A stretch of DNA of 64,000 nucleotides. Source: Natronomonas pharaonis DSM 2160. GTDB lineage: Archaea; Halobacteriota; Halobacteria; Halobacteriales; Haloarculaceae. A program made the translations under genes and the position numbers. Under the pieces are notes generated by a model that was given only the letters and a program-made list of their open reading frames with translations, was not told the DNA's origin and ran no database searches. The stretch lies in contig NC_007426.1 in NCBI RefSeq assembly GCF_000026045.1, positions 2,046,001 through 2,110,000 on the forward strand, given 5' to 3'. This document shows, in pieces, positions 7,364-21,177 of this stretch (the first letter of the stretch is position 1; every line of letters starts with the position of its first letter).

Positions 7364-7367
7364 ATGA
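7242..7367 (+). CDS. Possible 41-aa leader frame coupled to nasA
   Basis: The ATG at 7242 opens a 41-codon frame (MHMPQHLRTGDNG...) whose TGA overlaps the nasA start as ATGA. An 8-codon frame MSWLTKRR at 7216-7242 ends TAA, and that stop overlaps this ATG as TAATG. The peptide has no recognisable domain and its composition (Arg/Pro-rich end) is unlike neighbouring proteins. It may be a translational-coupling leader or chance. Confidence 0.25.
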   Translation: MHMPQHLRTGDNGLATLSVETAASVTVRPIGPDRPPRARIR

Positions 7368-9454
7368 GCCAGTGGACGCCGACGACCTGCATGCGGTGTG
7401 CGGTCGGCTGTGGCTTGCTACAGCGTAGCGACGGGACAGAGTTGACAGATGTACGTGGTGACCCATCACATCCGGCTACTTGCGGTGCGGACTGCAAGCG
7501 TGGCGTTCAAGAAACGCTTGCTGCCGAAAGCAAACGCCTCACAAAGCCGCTTGTTCGTCGAGGAGGGACGCTGCAGCCAACCGACTGGGATACCGCCATC
7601 GGCGTCGTTGCGACCCGGTTCATTGAGGCGGTTCGTGCCGATTCCGGCAACGTTGCTGTCTTCGGCAGCGGCCAGCAAACGAACGAAGCCGCCTACGCAC
7701 TCGGAAAGCTCGCGCGCGGCGGGCTTGGGACGCCGCATTATGACGCCAATACTGGGCTTTGTATGGCTTCAGCGATCACAGCCTACGACCACGCATTCGG
7801 GGGGAACGCTCCACCGCCGACGTACGACGATATCCCCGCGGCAGACACACATCTTATCTGGGGAGCAAACCCCGCAACCGCCCATCCGGTTCTGTTTAAT
7901 TGGGTCGTCAACAGCGCCAACGATGGCGGCCAGATAGTCGTCATCGACCCGGTCGAAAGCAAGACCGCAGCTCGCGCTGACACGCACATCCAGCTGAAAC
8001 CGGGCGCTGACCTCGCCTTGGCGCGAGGGGTGATCGCCCATATCGTCGATACCGGCGGTGTCGATACCACGTTTGTCAAGTCGAACACCACTGGGTACGA
8101 CTGTATGGCCGACGCCCTGCCGGCCGTACAGGAGGCCGCTGAGACGGCCGGTGTAACCGTGGATGACATCGAGACGATAGCCGACGCGGTCGACGCAAAG
8201 ACGCTTCTCTACTGGGGGATGGGTGTCAATCAAAACATTCAGGGGACAGCGACGGCGCGTGCGCTGATAGATCTCTGTCTCGTGACTGGCAATCTCGGCC
8301 CCGGAAGCGGCCCCTTCTCGCTGACCGGCCAGGCCAACTCGATGGGAAACCGCGTCTGTGCCTCGAAAGAGACCTGGCCCGGCCACCAGCAGTACACCGA
8401 CCAGTCGGTGCGGAAAACAGTCGCGAACACGTGGAACGTTCCGTTTAGTCGGTTGCCAACCGGCCGAGGCGACGGGTTTGTCAGCATCATCAACCGGATG
8501 GCTCGTGGCGAGATCGATATCTGCTGGACGGTCGCAACGAACCCCGCTGTCGGGTTGCCTGATGCCGACCACGTGCGCTCCGTATTAGAGGATGTTTTCC
8601 TTGTCGTTCAGGATGCCTTCCGCTCTCAGACCGTAGAGTGTGCGGACGTTGTCTTACCAGCCGCAACGTGGGGAGAAACCACCGGGACGACGATGAACAT
8701 GGAACGCCGGGTCGCTCCACTCTCGGCTGCGGTTGAACCGCCCGGAGAAGCCAGACAGGACCTCGATATCATCGCCGCTATCGGCAACCGAATCGAGCCG
8801 GAGCTGTTTGACGAGCCGCCGCTTGACCCCAGCGACGTCTTCGCGGAGCTTCGGTCGATAACGGCCGGTGCCCCTGCGGATCTCTCGGGCATCAGCTACG
8901 AGCGGTTGGAGCGGCACGGGGCCGTCCGATGGCCCGCTGCCGACACCGATTCAGAGGGCGGCTATTTGTATTTCGACGATGGTGAATGGTCATTCGACAC
9001 TGACAGCGGTCTGGCAGCCTTCTCGTCCGGCACGCATAGTGGCGTCGCCGAGCCAGTCGACGGGCAGTATCCGCTCACGTTAACGACCGGTCGGTCAGCC
9101 GGCGTTTATAATACGGGCGTCCGGAACGCCGAAACGCTCACTGACGGGCTACCGCGGGCCCGGATGCACCCCCGGACGATCACCGAGCAGCTGGCCGCAT
9201 TTGACCGAGGCCGAACGGTGGTGGAGTCCCGACGCGGCTCCGTTACGGTTGCAGTTGAACCGGACGAGGGGATTCCACGGGGACTCGTCTGGCTGCCGAT
9301 ACACAATCCTGCAGTCAACACGTTGACCCTCCCGACCGTCGATCCACAGTCCGACGAACCGAATTACAAGCAGTGTGCGGTCAGGATTCGAGCCCCGACA
9401 GAAACCGACCCTGTAGCCGAAACCGAGCAGGCAGCCGACACAGTTAACGGATGA
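7364..9454 (+). CDS. nasA: Assimilatory nitrate reductase, molybdopterin subunit
   Basis: This 696-residue molybdopterin oxidoreductase reduces nitrate to nitrite in the cytoplasm. The N-terminal [4Fe-4S] ligands are Cys9-x2-Cys12-x3-Cys16-x27-Cys44 (CMRCAVGC ... CGADCKRG). Next come the Mo-bis-MGD domains with FGSGQQTNEAAYALGKLARG, GANPATAHPVLFNWV, GPGSGPFSLTGQANSMGNR and a C-terminal TGRSAGVYNTG pterin-binding segment. There is no Tat signal and no second cluster or flavin domain, so it is the short ferredoxin-linked assimilatory type. The start ATG overlaps the stop of an upstream mini-frame. It is followed by narK after 492 bases. Confidence 0.93.
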   Translation: MSQWTPTTCMRCAVGCGLLQRSDGTELTDVRGDPSHPATCGADCKRGVQETLAAESKRLTKPLVRRGGTLQPTDWDTAIGVVATRFIEAVRADSGNVAVFGSGQQTNEAAYALGKLARGGLGTPHYDANTGLCMASAITAYDHAFGGNAPPPTYDDIPAADTHLIWGANPATAHPVLFNWVVNSANDGGQIVVIDPVESKTAARADTHIQLKPGADLALARGVIAHIVDTGGVDTTFVKSNTTGYDCMADALPAVQEAAETAGVTVDDIETIADAVDAKTLLYWGMGVNQNIQGTATARALIDLCLVTGNLGPGSGPFSLTGQANSMGNRVCASKETWPGHQQYTDQSVRKTVANTWNVPFSRLPTGRGDGFVSIINRMARGEIDICWTVATNPAVGLPDADHVRSVLEDVFLVVQDAFRSQTVECADVVLPAATWGETTGTTMNMERRVAPLSAAVEPPGEARQDLDIIAAIGNRIEPELFDEPPLDPSDVFAELRSITAGAPADLSGISYERLERHGAVRWPAADTDSEGGYLYFDDGEWSFDTDSGLAAFSSGTHSGVAEPVDGQYPLTLTTGRSAGVYNTGVRNAETLTDGLPRARMHPRTITEQLAAFDRGRTVVESRRGSVTVAVEPDEGIPRGLVWLPIHNPAVNTLTLPTVDPQSDEPNYKQCAVRIRAPTETDPVAETEQAADTVNG

Positions 9455-9543
9455 GGACGTCCGTCCGGACCTTCGGCTTTCCATCTACTGTCGTCGGGGG
9501 CGTTCATGCGGTGCTCGCTTGTTAATTTTTTCAGCGGGGGAAA

Positions 9544-9564
9544 TACGCCGTCTGAGACGGTGTA
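9544..9564. promoter_or_regulatory. 21-bp operator-like palindrome
   Basis: CCGTCT at 9548-9553 and AGACGG at 9555-9560 are exact complements around one base. Flanking TAC and GTA extend the symmetry with one mismatch on each side. It lies just before the TATA-like TTTATAATGG near 9575. Confidence 0.45.
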
Positions 9565-9727
9565 GAGCAGTTTATAATGGATCATAATAGCGTCTCTTCG
9601 CCAGAGCGGCTGTGGGTTTCCAGCTTTTTGCGCCTATCTGCCAGACGTTTTATTTTCGTTCGTTACTCGGCGGGTGATAATCCACGGACGAGTGGAACTG
9701 GTGAACGTGCGTCTCGCAGAGAATGTA

Positions 9728-9741
9728 TTGACATACGTCAA
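9728..9741. promoter_or_regulatory. Inverted repeat TTGAC-N4-GTCAA
   Basis: TTGAC at 9728-9732 and GTCAA at 9737-9741 are exact complements separated by ATAC. It is one of three palindromes in the nasA-narK gap. Confidence 0.35.
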
Positions 9742-9761
9742 TCGTTTGGTTTATTTGCTGC

Positions 9762-9782
9762 CCGTATAATCCGTCTATACGG
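9762..9782. promoter_or_regulatory. Inverted repeat CCGTATA-N7-TATACGG
   Basis: CCGTATA at 9762-9768 and TATACGG at 9776-9782 are exact 7-bp complements with a 7-base spacer. The TATA-like core could mean the site overlaps a promoter on either strand. Confidence 0.4.
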
Positions 9783-9932
9783 AATTAGAGCATGTCCAGA
9801 GAAAAAATAGGCCGTTTTGGACAACGGTTGACCAAGAATTGTTCAGACGCAGGCCGGACCGCCGACCGTTCCGACGTAACACCCACTGGCTACTGCAACG
9901 TCAGCGACCACCCCCCGGCTAGTTCCCATCTA

Positions 9933-9940
9933 AGAGGTGA
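9933..9940 (+). promoter_or_regulatory. Shine-Dalgarno site of narK
   Basis: AGAGGTGA matches 7 of 8 bases of GGAGGTGA, the complement of the archaeal 16S rRNA 3' end, and ends 6 bases before the ATG at 9947. Most genes in this window appear leaderless, so this supports a leadered mRNA and fixes the start. Confidence 0.6.
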
Positions 9941-9946
9941 ACACTA

Positions 9947-11305
9947 ATGGCGATAACCGACCTCCTGTACGGCAAATACCGGAACCTGCTGATGGCGACA
10001 GCGATGTTTAATCTCGGATTCGTCATCTGGTTCTCGTTTGCCCCATACACCGGAGAGATAGCCACGGAGTTCGGTCTTTCAGTCGCAGACCTCGGCATCG
10101 TTGCCAGTGCCGCGATCGTTGCAGTCCCGCTGGGCCGGATTGTTATCGGCCCGCTGACAGACCGGTTCGGTGCGCACGTAACGGGCTCTGTGACACTGAT
10201 TACTGTCGGTATATTCGCTGTCATCAGCGCATTCGCAACGACGTACGCAGTGTTCACCGGCTCACGGATTATCGCATCCCTCTCGGGTATCACGTTCGTC
10301 ATCGGGATCCAACACGTCGCCGAATGGTTCGAAGAAGAGAACCTCGGCACCGCTGAAGGGATTTTTGCTGGTATTGGAAACGCCGGAGCCGGACTGGGCG
10401 CGTACTTTACGCTGCCGCGAATCTTCGGCGAGGGGTACATCGACCCGATTTTTGGCCCGGAGTTTCTCGCCACATCGGCCAACTGGCGAGCGGCGTTCTT
10501 TTATACTGGACTCATCGCCATCGTGCTCGGTATCGCATACTACGTGCTCTGTGATGCGGCAAAGTCCGAGGCAAAGCGTAATGCAACCAAAGCCGGGGTG
10601 AGCTGGGACCAATGGAAGTTCATCGTCACCCGATACGGTGCCGTCGTGCTGTCAGTAGCCTACATCATGACATTCGGGCTAGAACTCGCAATGAACGGAT
10701 GGCTCGGTACCTACTACCGCGAGGCGTTCGGGCAGGGCGACATCGTCATTGCAGCCACGTTCGCAGCGACGTTCTCGATTGCTGCGGGGCTACTGCGACC
10801 GTTGGGTGGCTACATCAGCGACCTCGTCAAGCGCAAAGAGATGAATCTCTTGCCGTGGTTCCACGGCGAGTACCGGAACCAGTGGACGTTTGTGACACTC
10901 GTATACGTCATGTTGACTATGTTCGGGATGACCGCAGCGGGGCTAACCGGAAACATCTACCTCGCGGTCGTGGCAGCGTTCTTCGTCGGCCTCGGCTGTG
11001 CCTTCTCCGAAGGAGCGATTTTCGCACAGGTCCCGTCGATGTTTCCCGACAATTCCGGCTCCGTCGCCGGGATTGTCGGTGGAATCGGAACCGTCGGTGG
11101 CGTCGTCTATCCGATCGCCTTCTCACACGCGATGTTGCCGAGTCTCCACTGGGGTTACACGGTAGTCGGTGCCTCGATGATTCCGATCATCGCACTCAGC
11201 GCATGGGTCTTCCAACCCCACATCTCCGAGGTTGCAAACACGTCTGGCTGGGTCGTTCCAGACGATCTAATGAGTAAAACAAAAGGGTCTCCGAGCGACG
11301 ACTAA
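9947..11305 (+). CDS. narK: Nitrate/nitrite transporter, NarK family (MFS)
   Basis: The 452-residue membrane protein has about 12 hydrophobic segments and the NarK/NasA-family signatures of the major facilitator superfamily: FNLGFVIWFSFAPYTGEIA in helix 1, PLGRIVIGPLTDRFGAH between helices 2 and 3, GIFAGIGNAGAGLGAY (nitrate signature, helix 5) and GIVGGIGTVGGVVYP (helix 11). Such proteins import nitrate and/or export nitrite. A 40-residue loop around residues 145-170 is inserted before TSANWRAAFFYTG. Position after nasA and divergence from nirA indicate the uptake step of nitrate assimilation. The Hfx. mediterranei equivalent is called nasB. Confidence 0.92.
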   Translation: MAITDLLYGKYRNLLMATAMFNLGFVIWFSFAPYTGEIATEFGLSVADLGIVASAAIVAVPLGRIVIGPLTDRFGAHVTGSVTLITVGIFAVISAFATTYAVFTGSRIIASLSGITFVIGIQHVAEWFEEENLGTAEGIFAGIGNAGAGLGAYFTLPRIFGEGYIDPIFGPEFLATSANWRAAFFYTGLIAIVLGIAYYVLCDAAKSEAKRNATKAGVSWDQWKFIVTRYGAVVLSVAYIMTFGLELAMNGWLGTYYREAFGQGDIVIAATFAATFSIAAGLLRPLGGYISDLVKRKEMNLLPWFHGEYRNQWTFVTLVYVMLTMFGMTAAGLTGNIYLAVVAAFFVGLGCAFSEGAIFAQVPSMFPDNSGSVAGIVGGIGTVGGVVYPIAFSHAMLPSLHWGYTVVGASMIPIIALSAWVFQPHISEVANTSGWVVPDDLMSKTKGSPSDD

Positions 11306-11492: not shown

Positions 11493-12164
11493 CTACCATA
11501 TTTCATTCATATTAGGCATCGTTGCCACCGCCTCACCGAGCTGCCGAACAGCTGTCGGGGCTGGCGAGGGACGCTCCGGGAGCGTCTCGACAGGACAGTC
11601 ACACATCCGTTCGAGTTCGTCCGGGTTCGTCCGTTCGGCGACCGATGCTGCCGTATAGCGGTTCAAGGCGACGCCAGCAACCGGTACCGACCGGCGTCGG
11701 AGCGTCTCGACGGTCAGTGCCGTGTGGTTAAGCGTGCCAAGTCCAGAGCGGGCGACGACGAGCGCTGGGACATCGAGCGCCGCCACGAGGTCGACGATTT
11801 CTTGGTCGCCGTCGGTCGCCAGCGGCACCCGGAGGCCACCGGCCCCTTCGACAACGCCAATATCCGCTTCAGCAAGCGCTGTCCGCGTCGCTGCAACCAC
11901 GTCATCGAAGGCGATGGTCGAATCCGCCCGACGGGCAGCAACAGCGGGAGCCAACGGCTTCTCGAACGTTCGCAATCGGGTGGCCGCCGCCGCTTCGCCA
12001 CAGATATTTCGGACGTAGTCAGCGTCGTCGTCCTCCGGATAGCCGGTTTGGACCGGCTTGACCGCGCGGGCCTTGCGACCCTGCTCGCGGAGCCATGCAA
12101 CCAGCCCAGCGGTCACAACCGTCTTGCCGACGCCCGTGTCGGTACCGACGACAGCGATAGTCAC
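11493..12164 (-). CDS. bioD: Dethiobiotin synthetase
   Basis: BioD closes the ureido ring of DAPA with CO2 and ATP to give dethiobiotin. The 223-residue protein starts MTIAVVGTDTGVGKT, a P-loop with the typical GT-x-T-x-x-GKT form, then VKPVQTGYPEDDDADY (substrate-binding Lys/Thr) and VVEGAGGLRVPL (the EGAGG signature). It is the last gene of the minus-strand biotin operon. Its GTG/ATG start region overlaps the bioF stop by 4 bases, indicating translational coupling. It is followed by about 190 bases of AT-rich sequence with T-runs suited to termination. Confidence 0.94.
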   Translation of the reverse strand: MTIAVVGTDTGVGKTVVTAGLVAWLREQGRKARAVKPVQTGYPEDDDADYVRNICGEAAAATRLRTFEKPLAPAVAARRADSTIAFDDVVAATRTALAEADIGVVEGAGGLRVPLATDGDQEIVDLVAALDVPALVVARSGLGTLNHTALTVETLRRRSVPVAGVALNRYTAASVAERTNPDELERMCDCPVETLPERPSPAPTAVRQLGEAVATMPNMNEIW

Positions 12165-13360
12165 AACAGCCCGACCTCCGTTCCGGCCACTTCAAAGGCG
12201 GCCAGACACCGGTCGATGTCGGCTGCAGTATGCGTTGCTTGAGGAGCCAATCTGATGCGGCTCGTTCCCTCCGGGACGGTCGGTGGGCGGATGGCCGGGG
12301 CGACGATGCCGGCATCCTCGAGCCGGTCGGCGAGAGCAAGGGCGTCTCCCCGGTCGCCGACGACGACCGGAAGGATATGTGTGTCGCCCCAGACCTCGTA
12401 GCCGAGAGCCTCCAACCCGGACCGGAGTCGGTCGACGTTCGACCACAGTGGCTTGCGCTGCTGTGGTGCCAGCGCAAGACCTCGTTCGGCAGCAGCCGCA
12501 GCGGGCGGGGCCAGCCCCGTCGAGAAGACGAACGAGCGGGCGGCGTTGAGCAGGTACTCCACCAGGGGCTCATCCCCGGCGACGAAACCGCCCTGTGCGC
12601 CCAGCGCCTTCGAGAGCGTACCGAGCTGTACGTCGACGCGGTCTTCGAGCCCCCGCTGGCCGACGATGCCACCGTCATAAACGCCGGTGGCGTGGGCCTC
12701 ATCGACCATCACCCACGCGCCGTACGTATCGGCAGCATCGCAGATATCCGCGAGCGGAGCCACGTCGCCGTCCATCGAGAAGACCGAATCAGTGACGACC
12801 AACCACGACTCGTCGGCAGCAGCCTCGTCGGCACAGTCGCGCATACATGCTTCGAGCGCCGCGGCATCACAGTGGTCGTACACCTCGATGTCGGCCCCCG
12901 AGAGCCGCGCGCCGTCGATGATGCTAGCGTGGTTGAGCTCGTCGGAGAAGATTCGGTCGGGGGACAGTGCCGTCAGCGTGCCGACGTTCGCCGCATACCC
13001 CGACGAAAAGACGAGCGCCCGTTCGGCCGATTTCTCCGCGGCGAGCCGACGCTCCAGCGAGCGATGAGCCGGCGTATCGCCGACCACGAGCCGTGAGGCG
13101 CCCGCGCCGGTACCAACCGCACTGGCTGTGTCTGCGGCCGCAGCAGCGAGCCGGTCGTCACCCGCGAGCCCGAGATAGTTATTGGCGGCGAAGACCAGCT
13201 TTTCGTCTCCGAACGCCGGCGGCTCGCCTTTTGGGTCGACCGCAGTACGGGCGCTGGCACCGACGCTGTCGACCGGCGCGAGGTCGCGCCGGAGGCCTGT
13301 GTCTTCCCGGTCGGCGAGGCGGGCTTCGAGGTCGAACCCGCGGGTGTCGTATCGCTGCAT
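12161..13360 (-). CDS. bioF: 8-amino-7-oxononanoate synthase (BioF family)
   Basis: This PLP enzyme condenses pimeloyl thioester with alanine to KAPA. Family blocks in the 399 residues are AANNYLGLAGDDR, GTGAGASRLVVGDTPAHRSLE, FSSGYAANVGTL, NHASIIDGARLSG, TDSVFSMDGDVAPL, VDEAHATGVYD and the PLP-lysine segment GTLSKALGAQGG (Lys251). The C terminus (IRPPTVPEGTSRIRLA) is typical. It overlaps bioD by 4 bases and lies 3 bases after the BioU-like gene. No pimeloyl-forming genes (bioC, bioH, bioW, bioI) are visible in the window, so the pimeloyl source is unknown. Confidence 0.93.
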   Translation of the reverse strand: MQRYDTRGFDLEARLADREDTGLRRDLAPVDSVGASARTAVDPKGEPPAFGDEKLVFAANNYLGLAGDDRLAAAAADTASAVGTGAGASRLVVGDTPAHRSLERRLAAEKSAERALVFSSGYAANVGTLTALSPDRIFSDELNHASIIDGARLSGADIEVYDHCDAAALEACMRDCADEAAADESWLVVTDSVFSMDGDVAPLADICDAADTYGAWVMVDEAHATGVYDGGIVGQRGLEDRVDVQLGTLSKALGAQGGFVAGDEPLVEYLLNAARSFVFSTGLAPPAAAAAERGLALAPQQRKPLWSNVDRLRSGLEALGYEVWGDTHILPVVVGDRGDALALADRLEDAGIVAPAIRPPTVPEGTSRIRLAPQATHTAADIDRCLAAFEVAGTEVGLL

Positions 13361-13363
13361 CGG

Positions 13364-14392
13364 TCAGAAGCCGGGCATCAAGTCGGTGGGGCCGAAGACG
13401 CCATACTCGCCGGCACGGTTCCGCCGAACGCCGGCCTTCAGATAACCTAGCGCCGGCCCGTTGACATTGGCTTCCATGCTGGTGTCGTCGTCGAGCTGGA
13501 AGGTGTTGGTTGCCCGCTCGCCGTCGAAGGTCCGGCCGGTGACTTCGACGGTTGTCGTCGTCGGCTTCTCGTCGGAGCGGACATCAAGGATACCACCGAC
13601 GGTGACGTCTTCGGCATCGCAGATGCCGGCGCGTTCGAGGAGTACGTCATCAGCGTGCTCCATGTCGTTGAACTCAATGCGGCCGTCGTGTTCGTCGACA
13701 ATCGCTTCGATTTCCTCGTCGGAGAGTTCGCGTGCGGTTTCGATGTCGTAGCCGTCGAGGTGGGCGATGTCCTCGCGGACGGTCCCGCGGTTGTCCTCGT
13801 AGCCGGATTTGAGCCCGACACCCCACCAAATGTCGACGGATTCGACCTCGACGAACGATTGGGCGGCAAGCGCCGCCGCACCGGTCAGGAAGCCGGGGGT
13901 CGCGCCCGCCCCACAGACGAACGTGATACCGGCGTCTTCGAAACTGTCGACCCGGTCGTCGAGCATACCGATGACACGAGAGCGCTTGAGCACATCGACG
14001 AGGACACCTTCGTAATCCGCGTCCGCGAACCGGTCAGCAACACGAGGGATGAAGTCGTGTTCGAGGTTCGGCAGCGCGATGAGCACTGCATCGATGGCGT
14101 CGGACTCGGCGATGATGTCGTCTATCGGTGTTTCAGTCGGCTCCGCCTGCGTCGAGGCGGCGACACCGCGCATCTCGCCGGACTGCTTGACCGCCACCGC
14201 GCCGCCGTCGCTGGCGATGTTGCCCTCCGTCGCGGCCAGAAGTTCGTCGACATCGAGGCCGTCGTGGTCGATTGCGACGCCGTGACGGTCACACGCCGCC
14301 ACGGGGGTCAGCGCCGTCTTCTCCGTCGCGTATTCGAGCGTTCGTCGACCGATGCCACCAGTACCGAGCACTGCGAAGTTGATGTCGTCCAT
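13364..14392 (-). CDS. bioU: Probable BioU-type DAPA synthase (dehydrogenase-like protein in place of BioA)
   Basis: The 342-residue protein has an N-terminal Rossmann motif FAVLGTGGIGRR (GxGxxG at 10-15) and resembles the saccharopine/aspartate-semialdehyde dehydrogenase group. Other marks are LIALPNLEHDFIPRVADRF, VLVDVLKRSRVIGML, FVCGAGATPGFLTGAA and an acidic C-terminal domain. It sits between bioB and bioF, exactly where the KAPA-to-DAPA step (normally the aminotransferase BioA) is needed, and no bioA is present. Cyanobacterial BioU, an NAD(P)-dependent dehydrogenase-like enzyme that converts KAPA to DAPA using its own lysine, is the best candidate family. Lys136 is conspicuous, but I cannot align the catalytic residue by eye. 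Spacing is 2-3 bases to each neighbour. Confidence 0.72.
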   Translation of the reverse strand: MDDINFAVLGTGGIGRRTLEYATEKTALTPVAACDRHGVAIDHDGLDVDELLAATEGNIASDGGAVAVKQSGEMRGVAASTQAEPTETPIDDIIAESDAIDAVLIALPNLEHDFIPRVADRFADADYEGVLVDVLKRSRVIGMLDDRVDSFEDAGITFVCGAGATPGFLTGAAALAAQSFVEVESVDIWWGVGLKSGYEDNRGTVREDIAHLDGYDIETARELSDEEIEAIVDEHDGRIEFNDMEHADDVLLERAGICDAEDVTVGGILDVRSDEKPTTTTVEVTGRTFDGERATNTFQLDDDTSMEANVNGPALGYLKAGVRRNRAGEYGVFGPTDLMPGF

Positions 14393-14394
14393 TG

Positions 14395-15507
14395 TTAGTC
14401 GTCAGTTTCCGTTGTTGCGTTCGTTCGGTTCGCGTTCGATGCCGTCTCGGCTGCCGGGGACCGGTGTCGAGCCTTGACCGACTCGGGGTCGAACGTGTTG
14501 GCCTCGCGGTTGGGTTCCAGCCCCGCCCGCTCGATAATCTCGATGTCGTCGGCGGGCGTCTGGCCGTCCGTCGTGAGGTAGTCGCCGGTGAGGAGACCGT
14601 CGGCACCGGCCTCGAAGGGTAGATGCTGTTCGTCCGGGTCAAGGTTGACCTCACGGCCGCCTGTCAGCCGCACGCGGGCCTCCGGATGGAGGAACCGGTA
14701 GACGGCGATGGTCTTGATAAGCTCCGTCCGCGAAATCGTCGCCGCCTCGCGGTCGCCGATGGGCGTTCCCTCGACCGGGTTGAGGATGTTGACCGGCAGC
14801 GACGAGACGCCGACCTCCTGCAGTTCGATGGCGGCGTCGACGCGGTCGGCCGGCGTCTCGCCCATACCGAGGATGACGCCGGCACAGAGGTCCATCCCCG
14901 CGGCCTTCGCTCGGTGGAGGGTCTTTAGCCGGTCGTCGAAGCTGTGGGTGTTGACAATCTCCGAGAAATATCGTCGGGAGGTCTCGATATTGTGATTGTA
15001 GTGGTTGAGTCCCTCCGCGGCGAGTATCTCGGCTTCCTCCTCGGTCAAGACACCGAGGGAGGCGTCGACCTCGACGTCCGTCTCGTCGCGTACCAACCGG
15101 ATGGCGCGGATGACATCGTCCCACTCGTCGGGCCGTTTTTCCTTGGAGACGCCCTTTTCGGCGACAACGATGCCGAACCGCTGGGCACCGTCGGCTTCCG
15201 CTCGCTTCGCGGCATCGAGGATGTCCTCGGGGTCGAGGAACCCATAGGTGTCGATGCCGGTGTCGAAATGGGCGGACTGCGCGCAGAACCCGCAGTCCTC
15301 GGCGCAGTTGCCCGCCTTCGCGTTGACGATGCTGCAGGCGTCGACCGTCCCGTCCGAAAAGTGCCGGCGGAGCAGGTCGGCCCCCGCAGCCAGTTCGTCG
15401 ACGGGCTGGGCGAGCAGCGCGAGCCCATCGGTCCGGTCGAGTCGCTCGCCGTCGAGCGCCCGCTGGACCGCGTCATCTACCGTCTCGTTTCCGGTCTCGT
15501 AAACCAC
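14395..15507 (-). CDS. bioB: Biotin synthase
   Basis: BioB is a radical-SAM enzyme that inserts sulfur into dethiobiotin. The SAM cluster ligands are Cys68-x3-Cys72-x2-Cys75 (GNCAEDCGFCAQS). Other blocks are RFGIVVAEKGVS, GLNHYNHNIETSRRYFSEIVNTHSFDDR, CAGVILGMGET, LPVNILNPVEGTP and RLTGGREV (the Arg ligand of the [2Fe-2S] cluster). The C terminus adds an Asn/Thr-rich tail. The GTG at 15507 gives MVYETGNE and falls about 27 bases after the TATA box. A GTG at 15516 would add three residues. It is the first gene of the operon bioB-bioU-bioF-bioD, with the operator on its start. Confidence 0.94.
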   Translation of the reverse strand: MVYETGNETVDDAVQRALDGERLDRTDGLALLAQPVDELAAGADLLRRHFSDGTVDACSIVNAKAGNCAEDCGFCAQSAHFDTGIDTYGFLDPEDILDAAKRAEADGAQRFGIVVAEKGVSKEKRPDEWDDVIRAIRLVRDETDVEVDASLGVLTEEEAEILAAEGLNHYNHNIETSRRYFSEIVNTHSFDDRLKTLHRAKAAGMDLCAGVILGMGETPADRVDAAIELQEVGVSSLPVNILNPVEGTPIGDREAATISRTELIKTIAVYRFLHPEARVRLTGGREVNLDPDEQHLPFEAGADGLLTGDYLTTDGQTPADDIEIIERAGLEPNREANTFDPESVKARHRSPAAETASNANRTNATTETDD

Positions 15508-15531
15508 GACTAGCACCTCAGTTTACGAGAC
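15494..15531. promoter_or_regulatory. Probable BirA operator on the bioB start
   Basis: GTCTCGTAAAC at 15494-15504 and GTTTACGAGAC at 15521-15531 form a perfect 11-bp inverted repeat with a 16-base spacer. The known biotin operator bound by the BirA repressor-ligase has half-sites TTGTAAACC/GGTTTACAA with a similar spacer in bacteria and archaea. The core GTAAAC/GTTTAC is identical. The repeat abuts the TATA box and covers the predicted transcription start and both candidate start codons, ideal for repression. Confidence 0.75.
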
Positions 15532-15538
15532 TATAAAT
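15532..15538 (-). promoter_or_regulatory. TATA box of the biotin operon
   Basis: ATTTATA read on the minus strand is centred about 27 bases from the GTG at 15507 and directly touches one arm of the inverted repeat. A leaderless or near-leaderless bioB transcript is expected. Confidence 0.6.
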
Positions 15539-16960: not shown

Positions 16961-17266
16961 ATCCGTCACGTCACCGGAGTCTTCTCATAGTATAATAAAA
17001 TCTTTGGTTTAACTCTAAATGTTGGAAATATAAACATGGAGACGCGGCTCTTCGAGGTGGGCTGCCGAAACGTCGCTGCTGTTTTCGGGCGTTCTTGAAT
17101 GCTACTCACACACACAGGTACATAATTGTTTTCCATGTCAGTACTGGCGCGCGGCCGAACACACCGATTAGCGGCCGCTACGCGGACGGGCACCAGCGGA
17201 GGCAGTAGAGCGACCACCGTTAGAGTAAAGCACATTCGATGGGAAACGCTGGTTGGTACGGTAGCT

Positions 17267-19234
17267 ATGCCCGCAGAGACACCCACACAGGACGAAGTAG
17301 TCCATAGACCGGACGAGGAGTTCGTCGAATCGACAAACGTCTACCAGTTCATGCAGGAGTACGGTATCGACGACTACGACGAACTCATCGAGCGAACGAC
17401 GGGGGATGTCGAGTGGTTCTGGGACGAGCTTCCGTCGTATCTCGACATCGAGTTCTACGAGGACTACGACACCGTCCGAGACAACAGCGACGGCCCACAG
17501 TTCACCGACTGGTATCCCGGCGGCGAGTTGAACGTCGCCCACAACACCGTTGACAGACACGCCGACGGTGAGCGCCGCAATACGGTCGCCTGCATCTGGG
17601 AGGGAGAAGACGGCGACGTACGGAACCTCACCTACCACGAACTCCAGCGGCAGGCCAATCAGGTCGCCAACTACCTCGAATCGAGAGATGTCGGCGTCGG
17701 CGACACCGTCGGCCTCTACATGCCGATGGTGCCGGAGGTCATCAGCATCCTCTATGGCTGCTTCAAGGCGGGCGCTATCGCGGTTCCGATTTTCTCCGGA
17801 TTCGGTGTCGATGCGACGGCAACCCGCATTGCGGACGCCGAGTGTTCGGTGCTTTTTACCGGCGACGGCTTCCTGCGCCGCGGCAGCGAGGTTACGCTCA
17901 AGGACGCTGCCGACGAGGCCATCGCCGAAGCTGGTCACGTCGAGCACACCGTCGTCTTCGAGCGGCTGGGAGCCGACGTGCCGTGGGACGACAACCGCGA
18001 CGAGTGGTGGGCCGACGCGGTCGGTACCCAGTCCGACGACTACGAGACGAAGGCACTCGGCAGCAGCCAAGAGTCGATGCTGCTGTACTCTTCTGGGACG
18101 ACCGGCAAGCCGAAGGGCATCGTGCACACGCACGCGGGAACGCAAATGCAGGCCCCCAAGGAGGTCTACTTCGGCTTCGATTTACAGCCCGACGACCGGT
18201 TCTTCTGGGTCTCCGACATCGGCTGGATGATGGGTCCGTGGACGCTCATCGGCACCCACACGTTCGGCGGAACGATGGTGATGTACGAAGGTGCACCCGA
18301 CCACCCAGAGCCGGACCGCTTCTGGGAGATGATAGACCGCCACGGAGTCACCCAGTTTGGTATCTCGCCGACGGCCATCCGCGCGCTCCGCAAGCGGGGC
18401 GACGAGTGGGTCGAGGGCCACGACCTCTCAAGCCTTCGGCTGCTCGGCTCGACCGGCGAGCCGTGGGACCCCGAATCGTGGGCGTGGTTCTACGAGGAGG
18501 TCGGCGGCGGCGACACGCCGATAATCAATATCTCCGGCGGCACCGAGATATTCGGCTGCTTCCTGATGCCGATGCCGACCCAGCCGCTAAAGCCCTGCAC
18601 GCTCGGCGGCCCCGGACTCGGCATGAACATCGACATCGTCGACGAGACGGGCGCGTCAATCAAAGCGGACAACGAACGTGGCTACCTCGTCGCCCGGGAC
18701 TCTTGTCCGGCGATGACGAAGTCGCTGTGGAGCGGCGATGACCGCTATCTCCACGAATACTGGTCGAGCTTCCAGGACCCGCCGATGTGGGACCACGGCG
18801 ACTGGGCACAGAAAGACGAGGACGGCTTCTGGTTCCTCCACGGCCGGGCCGACGACGCGCTGAACGTCGCCGGTCGAAAGGTCGGGCCCGCGGAGGTCGA
18901 AGGCGCAGCGATGGAACACGAGGCGGTCAATCAGGCCGCGGCGGTCGGCGTCCCCGACGACACGACCGGCACCGCCGTCGTCCTCTACGTTGTCGTCGAG
19001 GAGGGCGTCGAGGAAACCGACACCCTCCGGGAGGAGATTCGCGAACTCGTCGGCGAAGAGCAGGGGAAGCCGTTCCGGCCGCGCGAGGTGCTCTTTGTCG
19101 ATGCGTTCCCGAAAACACAGTCCGGGAAAATCGTTCGCCGAGCGGTCGAAGCCGCCTACACGGGCGAAGACCTCGGCGACCTCTCATCGGTCGAGAACCC
19201 GGGCGTCCTCGACGACATCGAAGACGCGCGGTAG
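17267..19234 (+). CDS. AMP-forming acyl-CoA synthetase (acetyl/acetoacetyl-CoA synthetase-like)
   Basis: The enzyme activates a carboxylate to its CoA thioester via an acyl-AMP. The 655 residues have the large-family length. There is an N-terminal extension with WFWDELPSYLDIEFYEDYD, the P-loop LLYSSGTTGKPKGIVHTHAG, GISPTAIRALRKRGDEWV, the acyl-pocket INISGGTEIFGCF, YLHEYWSSFQDPPMWDHGDWA, the hinge HGRADDALNVAGRKVGPAEVE, and the catalytic-lysine end KTQSGKIVRRAVE. The substrate could be acetate, propionate, acetoacetate or a branched acid. ATG 17267 (MPAETPTQ) is chosen over an upstream Arg-rich reading to 17126. It is transcribed toward a convergent second ligase. Confidence 0.88.
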   Translation: MPAETPTQDEVVHRPDEEFVESTNVYQFMQEYGIDDYDELIERTTGDVEWFWDELPSYLDIEFYEDYDTVRDNSDGPQFTDWYPGGELNVAHNTVDRHADGERRNTVACIWEGEDGDVRNLTYHELQRQANQVANYLESRDVGVGDTVGLYMPMVPEVISILYGCFKAGAIAVPIFSGFGVDATATRIADAECSVLFTGDGFLRRGSEVTLKDAADEAIAEAGHVEHTVVFERLGADVPWDDNRDEWWADAVGTQSDDYETKALGSSQESMLLYSSGTTGKPKGIVHTHAGTQMQAPKEVYFGFDLQPDDRFFWVSDIGWMMGPWTLIGTHTFGGTMVMYEGAPDHPEPDRFWEMIDRHGVTQFGISPTAIRALRKRGDEWVEGHDLSSLRLLGSTGEPWDPESWAWFYEEVGGGDTPIINISGGTEIFGCFLMPMPTQPLKPCTLGGPGLGMNIDIVDETGASIKADNERGYLVARDSCPAMTKSLWSGDDRYLHEYWSSFQDPPMWDHGDWAQKDEDGFWFLHGRADDALNVAGRKVGPAEVEGAAMEHEAVNQAAAVGVPDDTTGTAVVLYVVVEEGVEETDTLREEIRELVGEEQGKPFRPREVLFVDAFPKTQSGKIVRRAVEAAYTGEDLGDLSSVENPGVLDDIEDAR

Positions 19235-19358: not shown

Positions 19359-21041
19359 TTAGGCGTCGATGTCGGCTTCTTCCTGTGCCTCGTCGCGGAG
19401 CTCGGTGCGCCGAATCTTGCCGGTGACGGTGGTCGGCAGCTCGTCGCGGAACTCTATTTCACGCGGATACTCGTGGGCGGACATCTCCTCTTTGACGTGG
19501 GTTTTGATGTCCTCTTTCGTTTCCTCGGTTGGGTCCGCACCGTCGCTGGGGACCGCGTAGGCCTTCACGATGTTGCCCCGCTCCTTGTGGGGCTTGCCGA
19601 CGACGGCGACCTCCGCGACCGCCGGGTGTTCGCCCATCGAGCTTTCGACCTCGAAGGGACCGATGCGGTAGCCCGACGAGAGAATGACGTCGTCGGCCCG
19701 GCCCTCGAACCAGAAGTAACCGTCCTCGTCTTTGTGTGCGAGGTCGCCGGAGAGATACCACTCACCGTCGGGCCCGTCAACGAAGCAGTCTGCCGTCTTC
19801 TCCGGCTTCTGCCAGTATTCGGCGAAGAAGCACGGATAGTCGCCGCGCTGGGCGATTTCGCCGGTCTCGTCCGGCGGGAGTACCTCGCCGGTATCGGGGT
19901 CGACGATGTCGGCCTCGATGCCCGGCAGCGGCTTGCCCATCGAGCCGGGACGGACCTCCTCGGAGGGGTAGTTGTTGATAATCATGTTGCCGGTCTCGGT
20001 TTGGCCGTAGGTGTCGTGAATGGTGACGCCGAGGTTCTCTTCGCCCCACTCGACGACGCCGGCCGAGAGCGGTTCACCGATAGACAGCGCATGCCGGAGG
20101 TCGAGCGACGTATCCTCGAAGACGTCCTCGTTCTCCCGGAGCATCCGGTATGCCGTCGGCACCGAGAACAGCACCGAAATCGGGTACTCGTCGAGGAGTT
20201 CCGCCCACTCTTCGGGGTCGAACTCGCCCTCGTAGGTAAAGAGGCTCGCACCCCAGAACCACGCGCCGAGCGTGTTGATAGCGCCGGTCAGCCAGCCAAG
20301 GTCGCCGGTCGACCAGTAGAGGTCGCCGGGCTGGAGGTCGACCGAATACCGCTGGGTCGCAGCAACGCCCAGCACCCACCGGTGCTTGTGGAGAACGCCC
20401 TTCGCGGGGCCGGTCGTTCCGGAGGTGTAGTACAGCAGCGCGTCGTCTTCGCTTTCCGTGTCGGCGGCCTCGTATTCGCGGCTCGCTTCGTCGAGGCGGT
20501 CGTTGAACGCGACATCGTCGTCCGGCACGCCGGAGCCGCGGTCGACAGTGATGACGTGTTCGACAGAATCGACCTCTTCGAGGGCATCCGCGACTGTCTC
20601 ACGGTTATCGTCGGTCGTGACGACGACTTGCGCGTCACAGTCGTTCAGTCGGTAGGAGATGCCGTCCGGGCCGTACCGCTCGTTGACGCTCCCCCAGACA
20701 GCGCCGCGCTTGAGCGTCCCCACGAGGGCAATGTAATGTTCGGGGATGCGGGGCATATACGAAAAGACCCGGTCGCCCTCGTCGACACCAAGGGCCTCGA
20801 GCGTGTTCGCAAACTGGCTCGACCGGTCGGAAAGCTCCCAGAACGGCAGCGTCGTCAGCTCGCCGTCCTCGGAGACCTGGTAGAGAGCGACCTTCTCGGC
20901 GTTGTCCGCGTGTCGGTCGCAGGCTTCGTGAGCGATATTGAACGAATCGGGGTAGTCGCCGTCGGCCTCATCGGCGATGTCGTCCCACGTGAACGATTCG
21001 CACAGCTGGTCGTAGTCAGGCAGGTTGTGACTCTCGGGCAT
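19359..21041 (-). CDS. AMP-forming acyl-CoA synthetase (medium-chain type)
   Basis: The 560-residue protein from MPESHNLPDYDQLCESF has all core motifs of acyl-CoA ligases: LLYYTSGTTGPAKGVLHKHR, WSTGDLGWLTGAINTLGAWFWGAS, IHDTYGQTETGNMIINNYP, WYLSGDLAHKDEDGYFWFEGRADDVILSSGYRIGPFEVE, and TVTGKIRRTELRD with the C-terminal Lys. The WSTGDLGW block resembles medium-chain/butyrate-type ligases. The first acyl-CoA ligase converges on it. Upstream is an AT-rich box near 21070 that suits a leaderless promoter. A start further upstream at 21086 is possible but adds a Cys/Ser-rich stretch of no known use. Confidence 0.88.
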   Translation of the reverse strand: MPESHNLPDYDQLCESFTWDDIADEADGDYPDSFNIAHEACDRHADNAEKVALYQVSEDGELTTLPFWELSDRSSQFANTLEALGVDEGDRVFSYMPRIPEHYIALVGTLKRGAVWGSVNERYGPDGISYRLNDCDAQVVVTTDDNRETVADALEEVDSVEHVITVDRGSGVPDDDVAFNDRLDEASREYEAADTESEDDALLYYTSGTTGPAKGVLHKHRWVLGVAATQRYSVDLQPGDLYWSTGDLGWLTGAINTLGAWFWGASLFTYEGEFDPEEWAELLDEYPISVLFSVPTAYRMLRENEDVFEDTSLDLRHALSIGEPLSAGVVEWGEENLGVTIHDTYGQTETGNMIINNYPSEEVRPGSMGKPLPGIEADIVDPDTGEVLPPDETGEIAQRGDYPCFFAEYWQKPEKTADCFVDGPDGEWYLSGDLAHKDEDGYFWFEGRADDVILSSGYRIGPFEVESSMGEHPAVAEVAVVGKPHKERGNIVKAYAVPSDGADPTEETKEDIKTHVKEEMSAHEYPREIEFRDELPTTVTGKIRRTELRDEAQEEADIDA

Positions 21042-21177
21042 GCGCAAGCTAGACACCAGTACGGAAGGACATAATATTTGCGGCAACTGTTCGATTCGTT
21101 ATATAAAGAACCCGTCCAAAGACGGGGCATCCGTGGCAGTCGATACCACTTAGTTCCCGTCCCGACAACGGACGGGT

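Follow-up and report, generated by a model that had tools for sequence, protein, structure and literature searches.

A BioU homologue probably takes the place of BioA in the biotin operon of Natronomonas pharaonis and other haloarchaea

The biotin cluster of the haloarchaeon Natronomonas pharaonis raises the question of which protein converts 8-amino-7-oxononanoate (KAPA, also AON) to DAPA (DAN), the step that is performed by BioA elsewhere. N. pharaonis is reported to grow without added biotin and to have three or more biotin genes (PMC3403918), and such prototrophy implies a complete pathway, so some protein must perform this conversion; the product of bioU, a gene of the biotin operon, is the best candidate. 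A 2018 survey of 31 Halobacteria recorded bioF in 18, bioD in 14, bioB in 19 and bioA in none, and concluded that possible biotin clusters are confined to Methanococcales and Thaumarchaeota (PMC6138646). BioU has been characterized in Synechocystis, where Lys124 is the amino donor, the reaction employs CO2 as well as NAD(P)H/NAD(P)+, and the enzyme acts once (PMC12915131, PMC9302846, PMC7133116). Our analyses left very little doubt that the product of this bioU fills the KAPA-to-DAPA step.

The biotin operon and the search for bioA

The window, which is the whole stretch of 64,000 nucleotides of N. pharaonis DNA analysed here, carries the biotin operon in the order bioB-bioU-bioF-bioD, with all four genes on the minus strand (Table 1). 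Only 2 bases separate bioB from bioU and 3 separate bioU from bioF, while bioF and bioD overlap by 4 bases, and bioB, bioF and bioD matched NCBIfam families of biotin synthesis, in agreement with the tight packing of these genes given in the preliminary description. For bioF, TIGR00858 was the best NCBIfam match, though its score lies slightly under the family's own curated cut-off.

Table 1. Features of the biotin operon and its upstream region, in positions of the window
Feature	Position	Strand	Description
bioD, dethiobiotin synthase	11493..12164	-	TIGR00347, 129 bits vs cut-off 83.3
bioF, 8-amino-7-oxononanoate (KAPA) synthase	12161..13360	-	TIGR00858, 390 bits, E 7.7e-117, cut-off 426
bioU	13364..14392	-	342-aa ORF; BioU homologue, Lys136 = Synechocystis K124, His246 = H233
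bioB, biotin synthase	14395..15516	-	leads the operon; TIGR00433, 345.8 bits vs cut-off 225
BirA-type operator GTAAAC-N16-GTTTAC	15499..15526	-	perfect inverted repeat over the bioB start
TATA-like TTTATAG	15531..15537	-	about 25 bases before GTG 15507; read from sequence

Several other genes lie close to the operon. Two AMP-forming acyl-CoA synthetases are encoded at 17126-19234 (plus strand) and 19359-21086 (minus strand), and a relative of the former also adjoins a lone bioB in another haloarchaeal locus (L058); a link of both enzymes to pimeloyl-CoA is possible. The stretch 7364-11305, which adjoins the operon, contains a molybdopterin oxidoreductase ORF and an MFS transporter ORF, which were identified by reading alone and resemble a nitrate-assimilation set.

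The preliminary description had reported bioA as missing and had proposed a search of the rest of the genome. No bioA was found within the biotin cluster of the window, and none exceeded the criterion of 405 bits with TIGR00508 in the whole genome (2.75 Mb, or 2,749,696 bases, in 3 contigs, 98.7% complete), where the best match reached 269 bits on a 131-kb contig. The genome carries three Aminotran_3 proteins, whose best NCBIfam families are the aspartate aminotransferase family/acetylornithine/GABA group, LysJ/ArgD and HemL, respectively; none of the three adjoins bio genes, and since all of them fall under the bioA cut-off, a bioA elsewhere in the genome was rejected. Likewise, no bioA over the cut-off was found in any of 60 relatives; when run as a control on 14 known genomes, the same search passed the cut-off in 6.

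Sequence, fold and conserved residues of the bioU product

The product of bioU matched the NCBIfam BioU model NF047886 over positions 2-321 of 323 (E 1.3e-97, 326.7 bits). The curated cut-off of this equivalog model, 600 bits, is missed by N. pharaonis BioU and by all 60 relatives; as a threshold for annotation, it does not define a property of function. It is probably tuned to cyanobacteria, and the model probably needs widening. In a phmmer search against the PDB, entries of Synechocystis Slr0355 were the sole matches (best E 3e-82, residues 5-342), with E values of about 1e-81 for 6ir4, 6itd, 6k36, 6k37 and 6k38. The two proteins share 143 of 320 aligned positions (44-45% identity), and BioU homologues of other haloarchaea are 64-90% identical to that of N. 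pharaonis. Such a full-length match, together with the haloarchaeal homologues, demonstrates that the bioU ORF is not a chance one.

The predicted structure pointed in the same direction. An AlphaFold2 model built from an alignment of 26 haloarchaeal homologues reached a pLDDT of 84.8, vs 33.8 from the single sequence. When this model was used as the query, the five BioU structures ranked first in Foldseek (best E 8e-41, range 1e-38 to 1e-41, TM 0.87-0.91), and VIA-align superposed the predicted fold on them with Z of 40.7-41.3 and 2.2 A over 322 residues, the next fold being that of amine dehydrogenases at Z 19. The similarity to BioU, the lack of which in profile searches the preliminary description had named as a refutation, was strong by profile, sequence and structure searches, whereas the saccharopine dehydrogenase-like Rossmann kinship that it had put forward proved real but distant (Z 16-19 vs 41 for BioU). 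Saccharopine reductase and the L-lysine, meso-diaminopimelate and amine dehydrogenases share with BioU the Rossmann fold and the reduction or oxidation of a C=N bond; they show only 10-21% identity to it in structural alignments and are not suicide enzymes.

The residues named in the PDB titles of the Slr0355 mutants, K124A (6itd, 6k37) and H233A (6k38), allowed the catalytic positions to be placed. Where the K124A chain has 'DALART', N. pharaonis BioU has 'DVLKRS', so that K136 falls without a gap in the column of the mutated lysine, which carries Ala in that chain; the preliminary description had proposed Lys136 for this comparison with the catalytic lysine. Similarly, 'DMEAADD' of the H233A chain stands opposite 'DMEHADD', with H246 in the same column. 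K136 and H246, as well as D133, R137, T165, R206, H211 and E245, did not vary in any of 204 haloarchaeal loci, some of which overlap and which yield 165 distinct aligned proteins; none of these loci encodes a BioU lacking the lysine, and 75 positions were invariant across 93 haloarchaeal sequences together with Slr0355. The invariance of K136 favours, short of proof, the lysine-donor trick over a free amino acid, as judged from sequence. Some related dehydrogenases have a lysine after the same strand that takes part in catalysis but donates no amino group, so conservation of K136 alone is not proof of an amino-donor role. A BioU that lacks the lysine and draws on free lysine instead would be a conceivable variant; neither a paper on it, in the literature searched, nor such a sequence was found, and we do not rely on it.

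Residues 57-73 of the protein form a low-complexity, hypervariable loop that is predicted to be disordered, and the segment between residues 57 and 86 is 14-78 residues long in relatives. The loop is short in Synechocystis and in the two most divergent haloarchaeal homologues, and the aligned segment has 28 residues in N. pharaonis vs 19 in Synechocystis. Haloarchaeal BioU, known from sequence and model, further differs from that of Synechocystis sp. PCC 6803 in its place within a compact bioBUFD operon and in its acidic halophilic composition; the two are alike in full-length homology, in fold and in the retention of K124 and H233 as K136 and H246, and the Synechocystis genome is likewise without bioA (PMC7133116).

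Distribution of bioU and probable regulation of the operon

Among 60 relatives, 20 have both bioU and bioB, 1 has bioU only, 5 have bioB only and 34 have neither (Fisher p 2e-10 for co-occurrence, with kinship not corrected); in the single genome with bioU only, the contig stops at bioU. Every bioU in the neighbourhoods of these genomes is accompanied by bioF, and by bioD where the contig extends far enough. Four of the five genomes with bioB only carry neither bioF nor bioD beside it, as expected for dethiobiotin users, and in the fifth (G056, L062) bioF comes immediately after bioB, and neither bioU nor bioD lies in the vicinity. The order bioB-bioU-bioF-bioD on one strand was kept in 68 of 80 named haloarchaeal loci, and in one more with a split bioF; most of the remaining loci are cut by contig ends, and L080, L132 and L140 show only bioB-bioU within 6 kb. 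A wider sample of the class, comprising 292 genomes, contained bioU in 107, approximately one third. Thin sampling across the phylum yielded bioU in 4 of 120 genomes, all of the same order, a sample that is silent on other phyla, and no BioU was found in viruses in IMG/VR or phage records. BioY occurs in 51 of the 60 relatives, and with BioY nearly universal, uptake does not complement bioU.

Among other archaea, the Methanococcales set of biotin genes comprises bioW, bioF, bioA, bioD and bioB and thus uses BioA and BioW (PMC6138646), whereas haloarchaea have BioU in place of BioA and mostly lack BioW. BioW is absent from the N. pharaonis genome, and among the 60 relatives it was found only in a divergent haloarchaeon (G045), whose locus (L037, 1-4625) has the order bioB-bioW-bioU-bioF-bioD.

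Copy number and location of the genes also vary. The complete bioBUFD cluster is present twice in one genome (G010; L038, L039), and Halorientalis salina carries a bioB-bioU pair in addition to a complete cluster (L076, L080); extra copies of bioU would increase the dose of a single-turnover enzyme. Plasmid records (among them L145 and L146) include the bioBUFD cluster of Haloferax larsenii and of Natronococcus occultus as well as bioU homologues from Haladaptatus and Natrinema, a distribution that suggests spread among haloarchaea. The cluster occurs in Haloferax elongans too. In three further loci (L184, L185 and L186 of G286, G378 and G394), bioU is broken over two or three frames, and these are either pseudogenes or sequencing errors. 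In Haloferax mediterranei starved of nitrogen, an Lsm mutant shows a joint response of HFX_5076 (bioD), HFX_5077 (bioF) and HFX_5079 (bioB) (PMC10779274); we infer from its position that HFX_5078, missing from the co-responding list, would be bioU.

The start of the operon carries a putative regulatory site. BirA boxes have a form like GTAAAC-N16-GTTTAC, and the perfect repeat over the bioB start is the sole match to it in the window, with 0 in 100 shuffles, and the sole site in the 2.75 Mb genome. When 96 distinct upstream regions of haloarchaeal bioB were compared, 87 contained the site with at most 1 mismatch in 12, vs about 0.02% of shuffles; its offset is nearly constant among the 87 except for four in which it sits 123-150 bases upstream, and it was found also in haloarchaea having bioB alone. 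Its right arm coincides with the first bioB codons, so that the conservation of this arm may be partly coding, and its left arm lies upstream of the probable start. The genome also encodes a ligase of the BirA type (L147, 1132-2178), which contains an HTH domain. The site is apparently a haloarchaeal biotin-repression site, and the operon is probably repressed there by a BirA-type biotin ligase.

As for the start codon itself, GTGGTTTAC is conserved at the same bioB codon in relatives, on which basis the true start of bioB is probably GTG 15507. The TATA-like element about 25 bases before this GTG, together with an arm whose position does not shift among relatives, suggests that bioB has a leaderless start there.

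Proposed chemistry, alternative readings and significance

BioU and BioA would act on the same KAPA step as unrelated proteins, the latter with PLP and with S-adenosylmethionine as donor. By orthology with Slr0355 and from the invariant residues, it is likely that haloarchaeal BioU works by the suicide mechanism with Lys136 as amino donor. Lys136 would condense with KAPA, the imine would be reduced by NAD(P)H to a BioU-DAPA conjugate, this conjugate would be carboxylated, and re-oxidation by NAD(P)+ would release DAPA-carbamate for BioD. BioU would then be left without the amino group of its lysine, and each protein would perform one reaction. No assay of any archaeal BioU was found in the literature searched, and we infer the chemistry and the single turnover from the orthology. 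Taken as a whole, bioU acting at the KAPA-to-DAPA step by Slr0355-like single-turnover chemistry, in an operon that is probably repressed by BirA, is very likely the best explanation of the locus.

The alternative that deserves most attention is a multi-turnover BioU. In this case, either ammonia or a free amino acid would supply the amino group of DAPA, or K136 would be re-aminated in the cell, with K136 serving as an ordinary acid/base or Schiff-base residue. The folds nearest after BioU, those of amine, meso-diaminopimelate and lysine dehydrogenases and of saccharopine reductase, do use free ammonia or amino acids; yet the BioU structures match at Z 41 vs 19 for these free-donor folds, many segments are highly conserved with Slr0355, and the invariance of K136 and H246 across all 204 loci, with no lysine-free homologue among the haloarchaeal genomes searched, makes this reading unlikely. 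If it were true, a family known for single turnover would include a true catalyst.

Much less probable is that the BioA step falls to a class-III aminotransferase that is encoded elsewhere and has escaped recognition, while the BioU-like protein has a different function. The genome does offer three Aminotran_3 proteins, one of which provided the 269-bit match to the bioA model, but they stay under its cut-off, match other families best and stand apart from the bio genes, and across haloarchaea it is bioU that accompanies bioF and bioD, which leaves this possibility very improbable. Public annotation offers still another role, since in plasmid records six close homologues go under the name 'transcriptional regulator' and another is entered as a 'hypothetical protein'. 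A search of the bioU product for DNA-binding domains found none, and a regulator, or a protein of some other role, is contradicted by the BioU fold match, by the full-length similarity and by the position of the gene between bioB and bioF, so that its probability is close to nil.

The single-turnover BioU thus remains the preferred reading. The BioU family and its mechanism were already known from cyanobacteria, and the well-supported addition made here is the archaeal branch. BioU fills the gap that the missing bioA leaves in the biotin pathway of haloarchaea, and the wrong gene names in public records can be corrected accordingly. With the archaeal mechanism judged from orthology, the suicide-enzyme route would extend to a second domain of life, and whether archaea spend one protein per vitamin molecule is a question directly testable with genetics, for example in Haloferax.
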